Assembly: GCF_014268275.3 (NCBI RefSeq)
Contig: NZ_CP077084.1
Span: 4,526,001-4,590,000, forward strand
Length of the DNA: 64,000 nucleotides
DNA from: Pseudomonas tritici
GTDB taxonomy: Bacteria; Pseudomonadota; Gammaproteobacteria; Pseudomonadales; Pseudomonadaceae
Direction of reading: 5' to 3'
The notes under the pieces are model-generated. The model ran no database searches. It saw nothing but the letters and a program-made list of their open reading frames with translations, and was not told the origin of the DNA. Positions 13,164 to 21,860 of this stretch are shown here, one piece after another; position 1 is the stretch's first letter; every line of letters starts with the position of its first letter. A program made the position numbers and the translations under genes.

Positions 13164-15830
13164 CTATCCGCTCACTCGAATATCAGTGATCGCATAGTCA
13201 TTGCCGGAAGCGCCTGACGACTCATGGCTGCGTATCTCCAGTTGCATCGTTGGTGCATTCGCAACAAACGTGCCCCTCAGCAGTGTCCATGCCATGTTGT
13301 AAAAGGTCGTGACCGGCGTAACAGCACCTGCGCTGGCCCACAGAGACAACCTTGGCAATGGAGCGGCGCCGTTGTAGGTGCAGGCGAGAATGCTGAAATC
13401 ATACGTCGCACCGACTACTAGCCCCGTGAAGACTTTATACAGGACGTTGCCCACGCCAGCAGTACTCGCGGTGCCATTTGCCACGCAGGTCTTGCCAAAA
13501 AACGAGGCATACCTCATCTCGCCAAGGGCTGCTGGTCCGGGAATCCATCCGTTCCAGTTATTGCCGGCAAACGGTGTGAAATCATCCAGCGGCGAAAGCA
13601 CCTGCAGCACCCGCTGAGGGCACACCACATTCGCAGTCGAACTGCCGTTTGTAGCTACGCTGTAAGTTAAGGTCAGGTTGCTTTCGTCCTTCAACTTGTC
13701 CAGCTCGGATCGTAGTACAGGACTCGCCACCCCAGCGGTCTCCTCTGCCACCTTAATCGCTCTGGCCGCGTACACATTGAACGAGTAAGGATTACCGTTT
13801 TTATTCGTCCCGGCTGCCTGCAGCCAGCACTTCTGCCCTGCCCGCAAGAACCACATAGCCTTCATGTGTGAATTGGCATTCCCAGCAAATGTTCTCAGGT
13901 CCAGAGAGGCATTCTGAGTCTCGGGCGGCGTAGCCTCCGGCACGTTCGGCGTTTCCAGGCGCACTGGCAGACTGATATTCAAGTGCAAAGGCGGTGAAGT
14001 CTGCACCTTGCAGGCGGTGGTGACAGTAAACGTGATCTCCACCACTTTACCCAAGCTCTCGATCACGGCCTCCGACGGCAGCAACCAGATCACCGCGCCC
14101 GTCGTGCTACCAGGTTGGGAGGTCACCAACCAGCAAGAACCGTTCGGTCTCTCCCAGCAGATAATGATGGAGTGCTTGGGATTGCTGCCGGTGTACTTCA
14201 CTTCAACATGTACGCCGTTGCGCCCATTGTATGCGGTCAATTGGTCAGCCACCGCCTCCCTCACTGACGGCTCGATCAGTGCCAAAGGCTCCTGCTCGAT
14301 TTTGAAAGTCTGAACAGGAAATTCGTGGGCATCCTCCAGCTCACACTTGCCACAGAAACTCGCCGCAAAGTGCAGCTCAAATTCGCTGCAGTCTGCCAGC
14401 TTTTGCAGCTCGACCCTTGGTATCGAGGCAGCGACTCCATTAGTTTTTCTGGCATCCTTAACAGGGGCATCCACCAAAATATCAATGCGGATAGCACTGC
14501 CGTCTTCACGCTCACCCGTGATCCACATCCAGCGACATTCCGAGCACTCGGCATAATCCCATTCAGCCACAAAAGCTGTCGCTTCCTCCGTAAATGTGCC
14601 GAGGTCCAGGATATGACCCGTTGCATCTTCAATCCCTGGATGAGTGAATTGGGGCAACAATACGTTGACCACCTGCTCAGGTGATTGCTGTGCTTCACCG
14701 CTACTGGCGAATTGAACGGTATAAGTCAGCGTCATCGACATGCTGAAAAAACAAGCAATATCACAGGCAGAAAGCTCGATGGTTGCCGGATCCCCGTCAT
14801 TTTTAATTGTCACGCAGCCGAGTGGCTTTTTTTCGTGACCGGGCCCGCCCACATAAAAACAGATCTGGTCGCCTGCATAGGTTTCCAAGTCGGGGACGTC
14901 TACATTTCCGCGATCTTTGGTGAGCGCAGAGTTAAGGCACCACTCATTGTTGTAAAACGTCGACTGTCGTAGATGAGGGGCCGGCATATTTCCCATGCGA
15001 GGATCGACAATCAGGGCACTGGTAGGGCGAGGACGACCTTCAAGTGCGTTTTCCGGGAGACGCGTCTCATGGATAGGATCGACACTAGCCGGAGGGCGTG
15101 GGTGGCGACCATCGCAAATCCATCCCCAATGAATCGTCAACGCCCCCCAGGGTCGACGACGTCCCATCCAACTGCGTTTCAAAGAAAGTCTGAACTCATG
15201 ACCCGGCACCGCTTCATCAGCAGTCACAACGCGAGAAAAAGCCACTGTCTTGAATGCAAAGGGCGTGCTGTCCTGATCACCCGCTACGTTCACGAATAGT
15301 TGATCGCGTGCTTTAACGAGAGGATGGGCATACGCCACGATCGTTTCATCCCCGGTAAACGTATACATGTCCAAGGTATCCGTGTTGTGAACAGACTTGG
15401 AGTGGACAAACCGGGGCACATAACCTTCAAGGTCTATTTCATCGTAAAAACGTACTTCCACCTCTGCTACCCGAGACTCTGCGGCCTTCCCTCCCACCTT
15501 CCCTCTATACTTGAACAACAGCGTGTGACCCATACCGGATGTAATGATGTTCAGGGGGATTGGGATTTTCCGGGCGCCACCAATACCACTTCTATCCACA
15601 ATCTCTTCGAATACGGGTCCGCCGCCATCCTCAACCCAAATTGTGACGACAATATCCGAGTCATCCATGTCCGGATCCGTGGTCAGGTGCGGGTCATCTT
15701 TCGCATCGAGCGGATATATGCTTCCGCCTTCCCCTTTGTAAACCACTGGGGCTAAAACCTCGATAGCCTTGGGTTTGCGCGTATTAACCGGTTTTAAAGA
15801 AGCATTAGGCGCCGTTATTTTTTTAGCCAT
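13164..15830 (-). CDS. Multidomain beta-rich protein of unknown function, paralogue 1
   Basis: 888 residues. The ATG at 15830 is chosen because it has a GGAG site and matches the start context of the two paralogues. There is no Sec signal and no transmembrane segment; the first 25 residues are basic and Lys/Pro-rich (MAKKITAPN...). The rest reads as alternating Ig-like modules of two kinds: one with SVREAV...NGRNGVHVEVKY, the other with LDLRTFAGNANSHMKAMW and ...W-G-G- patterns. About three pairs are present. The C-terminal ~140 residues look like a jelly-roll carbohydrate-binding fold (GNNWNGWIPG ... NDYAITDIRVSG). It is Cys-rich (CSEC, CGKC). GC is visibly lower than in the neighbours. Similar modules occur, as I recall, in large uncharacterised Pseudomonas proteins. 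No function can be assigned. Confidence 0.8.
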   Translation of the reverse strand: MAKKITAPNASLKPVNTRKPKAIEVLAPVVYKGEGGSIYPLDAKDDPHLTTDPDMDDSDIVVTIWVEDGGGPVFEEIVDRSGIGGARKIPIPLNIITSGMGHTLLFKYRGKVGGKAAESRVAEVEVRFYDEIDLEGYVPRFVHSKSVHNTDTLDMYTFTGDETIVAYAHPLVKARDQLFVNVAGDQDSTPFAFKTVAFSRVVTADEAVPGHEFRLSLKRSWMGRRRPWGALTIHWGWICDGRHPRPPASVDPIHETRLPENALEGRPRPTSALIVDPRMGNMPAPHLRQSTFYNNEWCLNSALTKDRGNVDVPDLETYAGDQICFYVGGPGHEKKPLGCVTIKNDGDPATIELSACDIACFFSMSMTLTYTVQFASSGEAQQSPEQVVNVLLPQFTHPGIEDATGHILDLGTFTEEATAFVAEWDYAECSECRWMWITGEREDGSAIRIDILVDAPVKDARKTNGVAASIPRVELQKLADCSEFELHFAASFCGKCELEDAHEFPVQTFKIEQEPLALIEPSVREAVADQLTAYNGRNGVHVEVKYTGSNPKHSIIICWERPNGSCWLVTSQPGSTTGAVIWLLPSEAVIESLGKVVEITFTVTTACKVQTSPPLHLNISLPVRLETPNVPEATPPETQNASLDLRTFAGNANSHMKAMWFLRAGQKCWLQAAGTNKNGNPYSFNVYAARAIKVAEETAGVASPVLRSELDKLKDESNLTLTYSVATNGSSTANVVCPQRVLQVLSPLDDFTPFAGNNWNGWIPGPAALGEMRYASFFGKTCVANGTASTAGVGNVLYKVFTGLVVGATYDFSILACTYNGAAPLPRLSLWASAGAVTPVTTFYNMAWTLLRGTFVANAPTMQLEIRSHESSGASGNDYAITDIRVSG

Positions 15831-15921
15831 GGTCAGAACTCCGTGTTCCAAGGGTTGTAACCCAAAGCCAGTCTAAGGCCGAGGTCTCCTATTAGTGAGC
15901 ACTTTTAACGCTTCTTCGCCT

Positions 15922-15939
15922 ACTGTCAAAATTAACAGT
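15922..15939 (-). promoter_or_regulatory. Degenerate lux-box-like palindrome upstream of paralogue 1
   Basis: ACTGTCAAAATTAACAGT: the outer half-sites match the perfect palindromes of the two other paralogues (ACTGTCAGATCTGACAGT), the centre has diverged. It keeps the CT-N12-AG frame of lux/las boxes. It lies 92 bp upstream of the ATG; the others lie 95 and 97 bp upstream. Confidence 0.5.
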
Positions 15940-16029
15940 TTTGACGAATTTCCCTTGCTCTCCGATCAATGACCATCCCACAACGCCATAACTTCATTAT
16001 TGTGCTACCCCCAATGTGAATCGAGTAAT

Positions 16030-16086
16030 CAGCAACGAGCGCCTTCGCGGAATAATTGGGGAAGATTTTGGAACCGAGGTAAGTTA
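16030..16086 (+). pseudogene. Decayed fragment of the dsbG 3' end
   Basis: The stretch aligns with the end of dsbG (13051-13108). Allowing one missing base and a short gap, it reads A-P-S-P-E-stop-L-G-K-I-L-E-P-R-stop, against A-P-S-P-E-K-L-G-K-I-M-G-P-K-stop in the intact gene. A block of 15 bases (TTGGGGAAGATT-TGG, one mismatch) is almost identical. Homology fades upstream. It has the same orientation relative to the adjacent paralogue (convergent) as intact dsbG, so it probably came along in a tandem duplication of 'dsbG end plus paralogue'. Confidence 0.65.
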
Positions 16087-16104
16087 CTCAACGGCCTTAC
16101 GAAA

Positions 16105-16129
16105 AGGGCCTTCACACAGTGAAGGCCCT
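16105..16129. terminator. Terminator after paralogue 2
   Basis: An 11-bp perfect stem (AGGGCCTTCAC) with a 3-nt loop. On the minus strand it is followed by TTTTCG, so it probably ends transcription of paralogue 2, whose stop lies 23 bp upstream. Its place relative to the dsbG remnant mirrors that of the terminator after intact dsbG. Confidence 0.7.
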
Positions 16130-16151
16130 ATCTTTACATCGTCTCGGAAAA

Positions 16152-18869
16152 TCAGAGTGTTCCCTCAAACACCCTGATCCATGTCACATCAAAATCATTG
16201 GCGGGATCTATTCCCATCCTGCGATTATCAATGCCAAGCCTGGCCGTACTTGAATCAGCAACAAACTTGCCCTCCAGTAAAAACCAGTTTGTGCCAGGTT
16301 CGATTACTGGGGTTATGTCTTTCCCATTCACTGTGAGTGCCATGCGAGGCGGCAAGGGTAGGCCAACAGAATCGCGGATCCATGCATGGAACGTATAGGA
16401 GTTCCCCGGCTCCAGGTTGGTGAAAATCCTGAACAGTTTCTCACTTTGCGTTGCCGGGTTGGATGTATTCGTATATCCCCAGTCTACCAACCAATAACCC
16501 ATCCCCGTTTCCCAAGGATAAGGACCGTACTTGAGCACCAGATCCCTGGGATCGGTGGCGCCCGCACCTCTCTGCCAACCATTCCACCCTTTCCTGTTTG
16601 GATCGAAGGGCGTTTGGTCAAGCAAGCGCTTGCGAAAGATCAACTTCAACGGTGGAAAAGGGATAGCCTCATCGATATTAGCGCTGCCATCCGCGGTCAG
16701 CCTGAATGTGAAGGTCAATTTAGCGCCGGTTTCGTATTTATCCAATTCGAGCCGTTTGAGTACACGCGACAAACTGTTGGTGACATCCGTTGCAGTAATC
16801 ACCTCGGCGTCCATCACCTTAAAGGTATGGACCGATCCATCCCACAGCGGGCCCGAGCACTCCAGCCAGCCCCGTTGCCCGACCAGCATGAACCACCAGT
16901 CCGGCACGCCTATGCGAGCGTCCCCGGCAAACGTACGTAAATCCAGAATGCCGCCTTGGGTGGCGGGTGGCGTTGCCTGCTGCACTTCCGGCGTCGTCAG
17001 ACGTACAGGCACGCTGACCTCCAGATCCAAATCCCCCGATGTCTGAAGCTTGCACGCACTGGTAACGGTGTAGTTGAGCGTCAGCGTCTTGCCAGCGGCA
17101 TGAATCACTTCTTCGCGGGCAACGCTGAAGTCCACATAACCCGGATTGGAGTTGCCCGGTTTGGGGGGTAACGGCACATCAGTGCCATCTGATCGTTTCC
17201 AGTTCAACTGGATCTGATGCCTGCTGCTCATGTGTGGGTAGGCCACCCGGACGGTGACCCCGTCCCGCCCGTTGTAAATCGTCAGTTGATTGCCCACAGC
17301 TTCGCGCACTTCAGGCGGATTCAACGCAAAATCTACCTGATCGATACTGAAGGTCTGAACCGGAAATTCGAGGGCCGTCGCCAGATCGCAGTTGCCATCG
17401 AAGCTCACCGCCGCATGCAGCTCAAAGTCACTGCAATCTTCCAGTTTTTGCAGTTCAGCCCTGGGAATGGGGGCGTCGACGCCATTAGTCATCCAGCCTG
17501 CAGTCAGCGGCTCATCCATCAGGATGAAGAATTGGTAAGAGCTGCCGCCCTCCAGGGTTCCGCTAATCCAAACCCAGACACATTGCCCGACAGCAGCGTA
17601 GTCCCAGATAGGCACCAGCACCGTTGCATCGTCGTCGAATGTCTTGAGGTCGAGGGTGTCACCCGTTGCTTGTTCGATACAGAGCTTGGTCAACTGAGGA
17701 CCAAGTACCTGGATTACACACCCGGGAGAGTTCTGAGGCAGGTAATTGTTAAATTGAACGCTATAGATCAGTGTCAACGTTTGGCAGAACAGGGCTGCGA
17801 AAATCTCAGGGGCGACTTCGAATGAAAGACTTACATCGCCCAGCTTCACGTCCTGGCAACCGAGCGATAAGGGCCCATAATTCGGCCCCGAGGCTTGCAT
17901 ACAAACATGATCACCTTCGGTCATGCCGGGGTAGGTCACTAATGCATGGCCGCCCTGGGTGGTGTTGGCCGGGTTGACCTGCCAGTTACCCGGGGATATC
18001 TGCACCGCTTCCTGTAGACGAGGCGGATTCAAATCCAGCGCAGGATCGACGCGCAGCAGCACCGTAGAACGCTGGTGGAAATCCTGAGCGTTTCTAGGCA
18101 GCGGGTTCACATTCGACACCGGAGCCTCAGGGTGACAACCGTCCCAGATAACCCCCAGATGGCAGGTACAGGACGTGTAATCATCCAAGTGTGCTAACCA
18201 TGGGCGCGACAAGAAGAACTCAAACACGTAGTCCTCATGCGCTTCCTCGTCAGTTACTACGTGATCAAAGGCTGCCCAGCAAAATTCAGGTGGTACATTT
18301 TGCTCATTACCGGCGACAACAACAAACAATCGCGAGCCCGCCCGAATCATCGGCCAGGCCTTGACCCGGATCGTTTCATCCCCCGTGAAATTGAACATGT
18401 TCAACCACAACGTGCCCCACTCCAATTCGGCATGCGCGAACCCAGGCATTGACGCACGCAGATCCTCTTCGCGGACGTCCTGAATCTCAAGCTCCAGTAC
18501 CAGTGACTCTTTGTGTGCACCACCGACAACGGCCTCGTACCAGATCAGCACGGTATGCCCGATACAGGTACTGATCCATTGCCAGGGAATATCGGCTACA
18601 TCACCGCTTGCGACACTGATCGGCGGGAACGTCGCACAGGCCTGGCCTTTAATAGCGAAATGCACAATGACCTGCGTGCTCCCTGCGGGAAGCGTCAGTG
18701 TCGCGGTCGTACCTTGGGCTGAATCCAGAGGGTAAAGCAGACTATTGTTCGTAGCGTACTGGATGATTGCAAAGGGTAATTCAGCCGTGGCCACCTTGGT
18801 TGATGGGGCGGGCGCAACGCTCATAGCCTGAGCTGGGGAGGTTTTTTTAGAGATCGGTTTTTTAGCCAC
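16152..18869 (-). CDS. Multidomain beta-rich protein of unknown function, paralogue 2
   Basis: 905 residues from the GTG at 18869 (AGGAGT 8 bp upstream; an in-frame ATG at 18887 would place the ribosome site inside the gene). It has the same plan as its neighbours: a basic Lys/Pro/Ala/Thr-rich leader (VAKKPISKKTSPA...), no signal peptide, then alternating Ig-like modules. Shared landmarks are FAHAELEWGT / FNFTGDETIRVKAWP near 140-165, then LDLKTFDDDATVLVPIW, PEVREAVGNQLTIYNGRDGV and TPPATQGGILDLRTFAGDA. The C terminus is a GWNGW-containing jelly-roll of the paralogue 1 type (GKFVADSSTARLGID ... NDFDVTWIRV), typical of carbohydrate-binding modules. The role is unknown; a surface, adhesive or toxin-like function is only a guess. 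Confidence 0.8.
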   Translation of the reverse strand: MAKKPISKKTSPAQAMSVAPAPSTKVATAELPFAIIQYATNNSLLYPLDSAQGTTATLTLPAGSTQVIVHFAIKGQACATFPPISVASGDVADIPWQWISTCIGHTVLIWYEAVVGGAHKESLVLELEIQDVREEDLRASMPGFAHAELEWGTLWLNMFNFTGDETIRVKAWPMIRAGSRLFVVVAGNEQNVPPEFCWAAFDHVVTDEEAHEDYVFEFFLSRPWLAHLDDYTSCTCHLGVIWDGCHPEAPVSNVNPLPRNAQDFHQRSTVLLRVDPALDLNPPRLQEAVQISPGNWQVNPANTTQGGHALVTYPGMTEGDHVCMQASGPNYGPLSLGCQDVKLGDVSLSFEVAPEIFAALFCQTLTLIYSVQFNNYLPQNSPGCVIQVLGPQLTKLCIEQATGDTLDLKTFDDDATVLVPIWDYAAVGQCVWVWISGTLEGGSSYQFFILMDEPLTAGWMTNGVDAPIPRAELQKLEDCSDFELHAAVSFDGNCDLATALEFPVQTFSIDQVDFALNPPEVREAVGNQLTIYNGRDGVTVRVAYPHMSSRHQIQLNWKRSDGTDVPLPPKPGNSNPGYVDFSVAREEVIHAAGKTLTLNYTVTSACKLQTSGDLDLEVSVPVRLTTPEVQQATPPATQGGILDLRTFAGDARIGVPDWWFMLVGQRGWLECSGPLWDGSVHTFKVMDAEVITATDVTNSLSRVLKRLELDKYETGAKLTFTFRLTADGSANIDEAIPFPPLKLIFRKRLLDQTPFDPNRKGWNGWQRGAGATDPRDLVLKYGPYPWETGMGYWLVDWGYTNTSNPATQSEKLFRIFTNLEPGNSYTFHAWIRDSVGLPLPPRMALTVNGKDITPVIEPGTNWFLLEGKFVADSSTARLGIDNRRMGIDPANDFDVTWIRVFEGTL

Positions 18870-18887
18870 GATAAGACTCCTGTCCAA

Positions 18888-18942
18888 CGTTAGATAACCG
18901 TCGAGGCTGGCCAGGCCAGCCAGAAACTTCGGTTATCTAACG
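18888..18942. repeat. Nested perfect inverted repeat in the leader of paralogue 2
   Basis: Outer arms CGTTAGATAACCG (18888-18900) and its exact complement (18930-18942) enclose a second perfect palindrome, GGCTGGCC-A-GGCCAGCC (18905-18921). It lies between the lux-like box and the start codon, so it would form a long hairpin in the mRNA leader. A weaker version (TAGATAAC ... GTTATCT with a GC-rich inner stem) is found in the leader of paralogue 3 at about 21769-21817. Confidence 0.75.
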
Positions 18943-18963
18943 CTCGGTTCAGAAATCTTGGCT

Positions 18964-18981
18964 ACTGTCAGATCTGACAGT
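18964..18981 (-). promoter_or_regulatory. Perfect lux-box-like palindrome upstream of paralogue 2
   Basis: ACTGTCAGATCTGACAGT, an 18-bp perfect palindrome whose core has the CT-N12-AG layout of LuxR/LasR-type operators. It lies 95 bp before the GTG start. The identical sequence occurs upstream of paralogue 3. Confidence 0.7.
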
Positions 18982-19043
18982 TCTGCCGCCAATTCACGAC
19001 TTCCCCGACCAACGGCAAACTCAAAATCTTCGACGTCATAACT

Positions 19044-21746
19044 TCAGTCTCGATAGCAGGCATGGAAGTTATCGATAAACGAATAGTCGCGCACAAGAAT
19101 GGTCAACCAACTGATAGCCGTCCCCGGTTCTGTCACATGCTCGACCCAGAAACCTCCTCGCCAATCGTCAGGATAATCGACACTGGTTATGACCTTACCG
19201 CCTTCATCATAATAGACGACCGTCGCGGGTTGTTGTTTCCAGGCCCAGGCAAACTTGACGGACTCCAATGGCCGGACGAAGTCAATTCGGTGCAGTTGTG
19301 GCGGAACTTGATTATCGACGTTTTCACACATGACAAAGTGCTTGCCCGAATAGAACTCATCATTAGCGTACGTGACAATACCCGCCACACCAGAGCCCGA
19401 CGCAAAGGTGATCTTCATCAAAGAAGTCTGCACACTCCCACCCACGCCAAAAGTACCCAGCGGCAGTGATTCGAAACGCTCGATGCCACAAATCAAAGGT
19501 CGCTTGATAGTCAGCTTCAGCGCTGGGAAAATGGTCGCACCGCTCTCATGCTCGCTGCCATCGGATGCGACAAGACAGGTGACGGTCAGAGAGGAATCGT
19601 GTTTCAACCCATCCAGCTCTGCTCGGATCAAAGGTGCTGCCAGCCCGTTCAGGACCTCGTCGTGCGTGAGCCGTCTGCCTTGCACCGCGTAGAACGTGCG
19701 GGGGCTCCCGTCCTTATTTGTGCCCGTGCATTTCAACCAGGCGTGGTGTCCCGCCAGAGCGAACCACCAGGCCGAAACGGTGATTGATGCATCGCCAAGA
19801 AAGGAGGCCAAATCCAGAATGCCACCCTGCGTCGCAGGCGGCGTAGCTTGAGGCACTACCGGCGTCGGCAGGCGCACAGGCACACTGATCTCCAACTCAA
19901 GATCCGGCGACGTCACGTGCTTGCAACGGCTAACGACACTGAAGCGGATCGGCACTGTTTTGCCAATCCCATGAATGACCGCTGCGCGAGGGATATGGAA
20001 GTCCACATAGCCCGCAACGGAGTCTCCCGGCTGGGGAGCTAACGCCAGGCAACCACCCGCTTGCTCCCAGCACAACGCGATGGTATGGCGATCGCACATG
20101 CCGTCATAGGCCACTCTCACCGTCACGCCATCACGGCCATTCCAGACGGTCAATAAATTACCGACTGCCTCTCGCACCGAAGGCGCCACCAGCTCGAGGT
20201 CTTTCTGAACCATTTCCAATGACAACGGTAGGAATGCAATTGCGTCCTCCATCTGGGTCGAGCCGCTGAAGCTCACTGAAAAATGAATCTGGAATACCTG
20301 GCAGTCGGCCAGTTTTTCCAACTCATCCCGAATCAGTGCCGCACTCACGCCAGCGGTCACCCACTCGGGTTTTACGGTCTCAGCAGTGAGTATGTCCCAG
20401 TGAAATGGGCTGCCGTCTCCTAGTTCTCCCGTTATCCACAAACAAACGGTTTGCCCTAAGGCAATGTAATCCCAAATCGAAACCCTGACCGTAGCGTCAC
20501 CGGGAAAAGTGTTGAGGCAAATCTTACCGCCGGTTTTTTCATCAACGTCTATACCGCTCAATCCGGTGGGCTCAAGCACCCGAGCCAGTAACTCCGACGA
20601 AGGCCACACACTGCCACGAAGGACGGTGTAAGACACCTTAATGGGTTTACCGAAGTTCGCACTGATGGCCGAAGCAGGCACGCCGAACAACAGGCTGGTC
20701 TCTCCCTGCTGCACGACCTGACACGCCAATACCGGAGTGCCTGGGCCCGGCGTACCTGCCAACTCTACACATACCTTATCACCGGGTTTAATGCCGTCGT
20801 ACGCCACCACGACATGGGCCCCATTGACGGTATTCGCCGGGTTGATCAAATACCCTTTCCCCTCGACATACACGGCTTCCCGGATAGTCGGCGCATACAG
20901 CGTCAACTCCGGCTCACGCACTCGCAGGTTAGCCGTGGCTCGTCGAGACAACTGCGCGTTCCCCGGGAGCCGGGAAATTCGCGGGTCCTCAGGTGCGGTG
21001 GCCTCAACATCTGAGTAGATGATGCCCACCCCCGTGGTGACGGACGAATAATCGTCATTTTCAGCCAGCCACGCGCGCAGGATGCCCAACAGGAAACAGA
21101 AGCCACTCTGCGCCTCCTCTTCCGTCACGACATGATTTTCAAGAATCCAGAAGAAACGCGGTTGTGCATGGTGTTCATTGCCAACCGCTTCAAACCATAT
21201 GCGCTGCCCGGCAGCGATAAAGGGCAAATCGCACAATTCGACGCCGGCATCGCCTGGAAAAGTGGCCATGTCCAGCCACCAGGAGCCGTCAACGAAGGAC
21301 AGGTCGGTGAACCTGGGAACAGGCATGTCATCAGGCTTGATCACTTCAATGAAGAGTTCCAGCCGGAAGGACTCACCCACCGCCGTCTTGTACCAAATGA
21401 TCACGGTCAGGCCGATGCAATAGCCAATGACCCATGCGGGAACATTTACCTCGACATTGGGCGCTCCGGTGCCTTGGGTCATGGCGGTGAAAACGGGATT
21501 GGCTTCTTGGCCCTTGATCGCCACGCTCAGCGTAATTTGAGTGCCTGCGGGAATCGCTGACGGGCACGTTACCGTCGTCCCCGCCGTTGCATCTATCGGA
21601 TACAACGTGTTGTTAGTCGTGGCGTTCTTTACAGTCGGCAACAGGTATTGGTTGGCTGGTTTTTTGGGAACGCCGGCCGAGCTGCCCCGGCCCGAAGCCG
21701 TTGTATTCGCTGAGCCTGTTGTGTTTGGTTTAGTCGGTTTAGCCAC
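19044..21746 (-). CDS. Multidomain beta-rich protein of unknown function, paralogue 3
   Basis: 900 residues from the GTG at 21746, preceded by GGGAGT as in paralogue 2. The leader is Lys/Pro/Thr/Ser/Gly-rich (VAKPTKPNTTGSANTT...). The six Ig-like modules follow the same order as in paralogues 1 and 2 (WWLDMATFPGDAGVEL, APTIREAVYVEGKG, ICLNTFPGDATVRVSIW, PSVREAVGNLLTVWNGRDGV, TPPATQGGILDLASFLGDA). The last ~140 residues differ completely: ERFESLPLGTFGVGG ... SFIDNFHACYRD reads as another beta-sandwich, so the C-terminal module has been exchanged. It stands directly downstream of pvdL, with no T-run terminator between, and could be reached by pvdL transcripts as well as from its own lux-like box. 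Confidence 0.8.
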   Translation of the reverse strand: MAKPTKPNTTGSANTTASGRGSSAGVPKKPANQYLLPTVKNATTNNTLYPIDATAGTTVTCPSAIPAGTQITLSVAIKGQEANPVFTAMTQGTGAPNVEVNVPAWVIGYCIGLTVIIWYKTAVGESFRLELFIEVIKPDDMPVPRFTDLSFVDGSWWLDMATFPGDAGVELCDLPFIAAGQRIWFEAVGNEHHAQPRFFWILENHVVTEEEAQSGFCFLLGILRAWLAENDDYSSVTTGVGIIYSDVEATAPEDPRISRLPGNAQLSRRATANLRVREPELTLYAPTIREAVYVEGKGYLINPANTVNGAHVVVAYDGIKPGDKVCVELAGTPGPGTPVLACQVVQQGETSLLFGVPASAISANFGKPIKVSYTVLRGSVWPSSELLARVLEPTGLSGIDVDEKTGGKICLNTFPGDATVRVSIWDYIALGQTVCLWITGELGDGSPFHWDILTAETVKPEWVTAGVSAALIRDELEKLADCQVFQIHFSVSFSGSTQMEDAIAFLPLSLEMVQKDLELVAPSVREAVGNLLTVWNGRDGVTVRVAYDGMCDRHTIALCWEQAGGCLALAPQPGDSVAGYVDFHIPRAAVIHGIGKTVPIRFSVVSRCKHVTSPDLELEISVPVRLPTPVVPQATPPATQGGILDLASFLGDASITVSAWWFALAGHHAWLKCTGTNKDGSPRTFYAVQGRRLTHDEVLNGLAAPLIRAELDGLKHDSSLTVTCLVASDGSEHESGATIFPALKLTIKRPLICGIERFESLPLGTFGVGGSVQTSLMKITFASGSGVAGIVTYANDEFYSGKHFVMCENVDNQVPPQLHRIDFVRPLESVKFAWAWKQQPATVVYYDEGGKVITSVDYPDDWRGGFWVEHVTEPGTAISWLTILVRDYSFIDNFHACYRD

Positions 21747-21842
21747 GATCGGCACTCCCATCCAAGGAAAGATAACCACCCGGCCCGCCTCTGCAGGCCA
21801 GGAAACAATAGTTATCTAAACCTCGTATGAGCCCACTTGCCT

Positions 21843-21860
21843 ACTGTCAGATCTGACAGT
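21843..21860 (-). promoter_or_regulatory. Perfect lux-box-like palindrome between pvdL and paralogue 3
   Basis: ACTGTCAGATCTGACAGT, identical to the palindrome at 18964-18981. It lies 17 bp after the pvdL stop and 97 bp before the paralogue 3 start. In RNA it would form an 8-bp hairpin, but no T-run follows. Confidence 0.7.

Follow-up and report, generated by a model that had tools for sequence, protein, structure and literature searches.

In the window analyzed here, a 64,000-nucleotide stretch of Pseudomonas tritici DNA (contig NZ_CP077084.1, positions 4,526,001 to 4,590,000), three consecutive genes on the minus strand, numbered 1 to 3, encode large multidomain proteins (Table 1). Purine-rich sites precede all three starts. 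An earlier note made from the sequence had described the genes as paralogues of 888, 905, and 900 residues. These lengths are exact, and the three proteins align from end to end, with 38% and 33% identity of the other two to the 900-residue protein. The array lies between dsbD/dsbG on one side and the gene for a 4293-residue nonribosomal peptide synthetase (NRPS) of pyoverdine on the other, and its guanine-plus-cytosine content (0.51–0.57) is lower than that of both flanks (0.59–0.66), as the note had also stated. No family in Pfam, NCBIfam, PHROGs, or PADLOC was found for the three whole proteins at the curated cut-offs. At E ≤ 1, PHROGs gave no family, and Pfam gave nothing except one weak, unrelated 22-residue motif. 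A match to NF003192 (E 0.002, 18 of 341 bits) was attributed to chance. A plasmid search gave no match to the array; a phage record (MT838112), which carries no annotation, was among the matches.

Table 1. Features of the three-gene array, in coordinates of the window.
Feature	Position	Strand	Remarks
Gene 1	13164-15830	minus	888 aa; ATG start at 15830; tail, six Ig-like domains, EclA-C-like head
Gene 1 head	13164-13592	minus	EclA-C-like; phmmer E 9.4e-13 to 6yf6, full length
Gene 1 box	15922-15939	minus	ACTGTTAATTTTGACAGT; one mismatch; 91 nt upstream of start
Gene 1, equivalent -10 position	15892-15898	minus	TCACTAA
Gene 2	16152-18869	minus	905 aa; GTG start at 18869; domain order as gene 1, EclA-C-like head
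Gene 2 head	16152-16634	minus	EclA-C-like; phmmer E 5.4e-8, 97 residues
Gene 2 box	18964-18981	minus	ACTGTCAGATCTGACAGT; perfect 18-bp palindrome; 94 nt upstream of start
Gene 2 -10-like element	18934-18940	minus	TTAGATA; 24-30 nt downstream of box
Gene 3	19044-21746	minus	900 aa; GTG start at 21746; domain order as gene 1, jelly-roll head of a different class
Gene 3 basic tail, residues 1-30	21657-21746	minus	disordered, pLDDT < 50
Gene 3 D1, residues 31-143	21318-21656	minus	type A by position; sequence support weak
Gene 3 D2, residues 144-262	20961-21317	minus	type B (model and sequence)
Gene 3 D3, residues 263-391	20574-20960	minus	type A (model and sequence)
Gene 3 D4, residues 392-514	20205-20573	minus	type B (model and sequence)
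Gene 3 D5, residues 515-624	19875-20204	minus	type A (model and sequence)
Gene 3 D6, residues 625-750	19497-19874	minus	type B (model and sequence)
Gene 3 head, residues 751-900	19047-19496	minus	carbohydrate-binding-module-like jelly roll
Gene 3 box	21843-21860	minus	ACTGTCAGATCTGACAGT; perfect 18-bp palindrome; 96 nt upstream of start
Gene 3 -10-like element	21813-21819	minus	TTAGATA; 24-30 nt downstream of box

The structure predicted for the gene 3 protein (mean predicted local distance difference test score, pLDDT, 85.7) consists of a disordered basic tail, six beta-sandwich domains of the Ig/Fn3 type (D1–D6), and a jelly-roll head. When the domains were compared with each other and with shuffled sequences, the type B pairs gave z-scores of 5.4 (D2-D4), 10.6 (D2-D6), and 11.9 (D4-D6), and the type A pair D3-D5 gave 10.8. 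D1 was weakly similar to D3 (z 2.1) and D5 (z 1.7). The stalk of gene 3 is therefore built of two alternating domain types, which bears out the alternating pairs of Ig-like domains read from the sequence before. Its fold is shared with the repeats of fibronectin and of large adhesins, but in contrast to the latter, the array is devoid of secretion or anchoring parts and of a Pfam match. Relatives of 2.3–3 thousand residues are encoded beside cbb3 oxidase genes (L046 3313-11328, L048 5972-14845, and L049 2318-9124), and the N-terminal half of the one at L046 is DUF4329-like (E 1.4e-5, below the cut-off).

The heads divide the proteins into two classes. Those of genes 1 and 2 are 31% identical, whereas the gene 3 head is only 12–17% identical to either; the module order common to all three genes thus extends over the tail and the alternating domains, but not to the shared C-terminal module that had been proposed. 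The head profile matched EclA-C (4e-27), the crystallized, fucose-bound lectin domain of the Enterobacter cloacae superlectin (PDB 6YF6; PMC11875179), and the heads of genes 1 and 2 have the EclA-C fold and are homologous to this domain across its whole length. The earlier statement that the array matches no named system consequently holds for the family libraries, but not for two of the three heads. The Asp that binds calcium and sugar in EclA (Asp273; residue numbers of the EclA paper were mapped onto the chain by counting) is kept in 16/16 aligned heads. The architectures differ, as EclA is a lectin of two domains, the C-domain and a LecA-like one, whereas the array heads cap six Ig-like domains. 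The array also differs from carbohydrate-binding module (CBM) families 4/9 and 22 in having no linked glycoside hydrolase. No catalytic domain or enzyme was found in the heads, and sugar binding is the sole tip function supported by sequence. The array proteins are thus probably long rods with sugar-binding tips, as judged from sequence and model.

Several findings speak against this assignment. The remaining EclA ligand residues are only partly kept in the array heads: Gly271 is Gly in gene 1 but Ala in gene 2, and at Thr181 and Ser269 the residues differ or align uncertainly. The Pfam family CBM_4_9 scored 12.7 bits with gene 2, compared to a cut-off of 25.9 (E 0.17); some relatives reach E 2.6e-7, while the whole array proteins are unmatched. 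For gene 3, D6 with the head gave no sequence match at E ≤ 1 in a phmmer search against the PDB, and it is the predicted fold that suggests sugar binding by this protein. A further family protein (L047 5337-9890) ends in a YVTN-like beta-propeller (Pfam lactonase and YNCE matches) and not in a jelly roll, which means that head diversity exceeds two classes.

Heads have been exchanged between stalks. The gene 1 protein and a relative at L072 (10926-13637) are 70–81% identical over D1–D6, but only 10% in the head. Conversely, D6 and the head show 99% identity between two adjacent genes at L061, and D1–D5 show 14–52%. These contrasts in identity indicate that tips recombine between stalks. In 29 of 39 loci (26 distinct), the array lies between a matching NRPS end (87–97% identical) and dsbG (80–98%); the 39 loci represent 35 distinct records, as four pairs are, judged by length, one and the same contig, and were chosen for carrying the family, so this proportion is not a frequency. 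The gap between NRPS and dsbG measures 2.5–6.8 kb in these 29 loci, compared to 8.8 kb in the window. Among 398 Pseudomonas genomes drawn evenly over the genus, 229 had some match to gene 3 at E ≤ 0.001, often a distant one. The site is a turnover hotspot, at which a strain carries one to three putative binding specificities.

Each gene is preceded by a palindromic box of the form ACTGTCA-N4-TGACAGT, 91–96 nt upstream of the start. If as many as three mismatches are allowed in the 20-base form, the window is expected to contain 0.00 matches by chance. A box with at least 12/14 arm bases near the start was found for 46/53 family genes, compared to 7/229 other genes (genes of at least 250 residues in 37 sources, the family loci). 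The shared control region named in the earlier note is thus real, and the survey across Pseudomonas proposed there does find arrays that co-occur with the same box. The box of a distant fourth paralogue in the same genome (L005 5538-8723) is degraded (12/14 arm bases). Because copy number at this site is variable and every gene carries a separate box, the three genes look like interchangeable variants and not like parts of one machine, contrary to the suggestion of a multi-component system.

Alignment of 48 upstream regions (from open reading frames, ORFs, of at least 350 residues, a few antisense or unrelated ones included) revealed the conserved frame AACTGTCA-N4-TGACAGTAGGCAA, with a TTAGATA-like element 24–30 nt downstream. 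If this element is the -10, the box is centered near -44 and its TGACA arm lies too far away to act as an ordinary -35; this suggests that an activator is involved. Each gene would accordingly have its own activator-type promoter. The boxes of lux type are palindromes of about 20 bp with the form CT-N12-AG that overlap the -35, and lux and TraR boxes have the form of the array box. The promoters have the LuxR-type form AACTGTCA-N4-TGACAGTA. A sigma-70 scan gave fewer promoters than in shuffled sequences and a terminator scan about as many, so the promoter reading rests on the alignment of upstream regions. The box was described in no paper found, in a searched literature that falls short of most subscription journals, nor in the accessible parts of PMC9769523, PMC7683790, and PMC8546723. 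The XRE regulator of PMC9769523 was rejected as owner of the box, as its motif, where given in those parts, differs.

Across the genus, the exact box occurs at 873 sites in 217/398 Pseudomonas genomes, compared to 2 for the reversed control. In the P. tritici genome, 15 sites match the box with no more than one mismatch (1 for the control), and they were assigned to the gene starting downstream. Besides the three array genes, these include genes for a 95-residue lipoprotein (L005 5134-5421) with a domain of the chitin-binding family CBM_14 (Peritrophin-A; E 5e-5), a DUF6252 protein (E 8.5e-7), a secreted DUF3757-like protein (E 0.0042, below the cut-off), a BurB-like protein (L095 956-1399, near 1083358), and further unnamed products. 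The CBM_14 domain is otherwise typical of animals. The one-mismatch sites L096, L099, and L104 at least, which lie inside or beside unrelated genes, may be chance occurrences, and the box-preceded gene at L098 was unrelated to gene 3 when compared with it. At L101 of the P. tritici genome (near 4594337), a pair of boxes is separated by 343 bp, and either box stands ahead of a very small gene, one of these genes being cold-shock-like by eye. At L008 / L011 (near 9580), a box precedes a 64-residue gene product beginning MATKKCTFKSRSNKSKS; such basic starts recur among box genes.

Of 44 box loci inspected, 42 had a candidate ORF behind the box: two were gene 1 relatives (L147 and L159), six BurB-like, and three Tc-toxin genes, and many had no family name. 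The BurB-like proteins are small and SET-domain-like (match to BurB, PDB 9L4T, E 7.8e-34), and their genes stand behind the box in seven genomes (L084, L090, L140, L142, L146, L157, and the P. tritici L095). The Tc genes encode the A, B, and C components (L136, L150, and L155; VRP1 E 6.5e-51, SpvB E 4.3e-84, and RHS repeat E 2.7e-6). The A and B assignments are firm, whereas the putative C assignment is based on the RHS repeat and the N-terminus. Tc toxins thus share the box of the array proteins, but are not homologous to them. The presence of the box in front of both stalk and insect-toxin genes suggests a shared control system. The Ig family is present in 175/217 box genomes, compared to 54/181 box-free ones (odds ratio 9.8, kinship ignored). 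Three points weigh on the other side: the family is nonetheless matched in those 54 genomes without a box, the very large relatives at L046, L048, and L049 have no box, and Tc genes stand behind the box only in other genomes, with none seen here, where no Tc search was made.

The best candidate for the regulator of the box, with roughly equal chances of being right or wrong and by correlation only, is the LuxR solo of the rlmG-fpr locus (P0004), a PpoR-like member of subgroup A. P0004 has an autoinducer-binding domain (PF03472, E 2.5e-27). Its gene lies, like those of PpoR and subgroup A, between the same two genes, for ferredoxin-NADP reductase and for what we take, following the description in PMC8546723, to be an rRNA methyltransferase. 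This subgroup is the most widespread one, and in the accessible parts of PMC8546723 its mechanism is called unknown and no operator is given for it. Autoinducer-type LuxR proteins were found in 10/10 Pseudomonas relatives with at least four boxes, compared to 4/9 with none or one. A link via any such LuxR proved too loose, and the comparison concentrated on rlmG-fpr instead. In 40 flanked genomes (reductase in 40, methyltransferase in 38), the recognition helix contained xRT in 36/36 with at least one exact box and QST in 4/4 without; 28 of the 40 are the closest homologues of the P. tritici copy and are not independent. In a second draw, 37/40 were readable, with xRT in 19/19 having at least four boxes. 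Of 11 without boxes, seven had QST, TST, or KST and four had SERT; of seven with one box, five had xRT and two SEST. On recheck, the four SERT exceptions had 11, 2, 5, and 8 core boxes, and the prediction held. The ten QST/TST/KST genomes had zero core boxes in eight cases and one in two.

A rival explanation, to which we give slightly less than an even chance, is that the box belongs to another regulator (a different LuxR, or an activator of the CRP/FNR or an unknown type) and that the LuxR correlation reflects shared ancestry. The evidence that detracts from P0004 favors it. The SEST genomes G083 and G219 hold 10 and 4 core boxes although their helix is not xRT, and a simple rule of Arg in the helix fails for them. 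A P0004-like LuxR at E ≤ 1e-20 is missing from 8/104 genomes with at least four boxes; the other autoinducer-type LuxRs of these eight lie away from rlmG-fpr, and one scores below the Pfam cut-off. Clades confound the correlation between helix and box, and the four flank-verified QST genomes may represent few of them. An activator of the CRP/FNR type, or yet another one, would fit the position of the box as well. The outcome in the SERT genomes and the distribution of autoinducer-type LuxRs among the relatives argue against this rival. A divergent autoinducer-type LuxR with a SEATVKHH/KYH helix (L240, L242-L249) occurs in box-rich genomes without a close P0004 homologue, and is a possible alternative regulator.

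Taken as a whole, it is on balance probable that the array proteins are glycan-binding rods co-regulated with host-directed factors. Each gene would give a long rod with a short disordered tail and a binding head, transcribed from its own promoter under the lux-box-like palindrome, and swapping of heads between stalks would supply the specificities at the fixed hotspot. The rods would most likely be made together with Tc toxins, BurB-like proteins, and small secreted or chitin-binding proteins in response to an active regulator, for which the rlmG-fpr LuxR solo is the most likely candidate; the palindrome ahead of these genes was seen at single loci, in P. tritici and in other Pseudomonas. Once made, the rods may recognize glycans in a eukaryotic host, for example in the gut or tissue of an insect, or promote the attachment of toxins or cells there. 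A difficulty for this explanation is export: no hydrophobic, signal-peptide-like start was seen in the three sequences (judged by eye, without a predictor), and no secretion or anchor gene between NRPS and dsbG. The rods are therefore assumed to be set free by lysis or along the route that the toxin itself takes.

The same observations make it unlikely that the proteins are ordinary surface-anchored adhesins with a sugar-binding tip for plant or other surfaces, their toxin link being due to a general regulator. The three proteins have no anchor, barrel, visible signal peptide, or Pfam adhesin or autotransporter match, and the array has no transporter gene; they thus lack the marks of type I or V secreted adhesins, and the surface role suggested earlier finds no support. 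Polymorphic interbacterial effectors, with a delivery stalk and exchangeable C-terminal toxins, would explain C-terminal exchange on a conserved body and a hotspot with copy-number change. The heads, however, have lectin- or CBM-like folds without an enzyme, and no immunity-like small ORF was seen between the genes among the listed ORFs of at least 150 residues, so this explanation, also raised in the earlier note, is improbable. The least probable explanation is that the proteins belong to a contractile or phage-derived particle, as its cargo or as something like a tail fibre: Foldseek does return phage minor tail and Ig proteins, as well as complement C3, but with TM-scores of at most 0.29, expected from shared Ig repeats, and there is neither a PHROGs family nor a particle gene in the array.

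The favored explanation of glycan-binding rods can be extended, tentatively and with a greater chance of being wrong than right, to a host-directed regulon that spans the genus and is recognizable by the box, with the subgroup A LuxR solo as its master switch. The targets would include Tc toxins, BurB-like enzymes, the chitin-binding lipoprotein, and the stalk-lectin family, and QST-helix lineages would have lost it or never gained it. Stalk-plus-lectin design and LuxR control are kinds already known, whereas, within the literature searched, novelty is apparent for their combination, for the exchange of heads, and for the set of operators. An unnamed three-gene array has become a family with a predicted fold, a lectin-related tip, variation by head exchange, and a precise operator. 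This operator ties the stalk family to Tc-toxin genes, and provides a candidate target set for a LuxR solo of little-explained mechanism, as far as the accessible parts of PMC8546723 go. If this is right, the sensing of a signal would be linked to genes directed at insects and to a new family of lectins.
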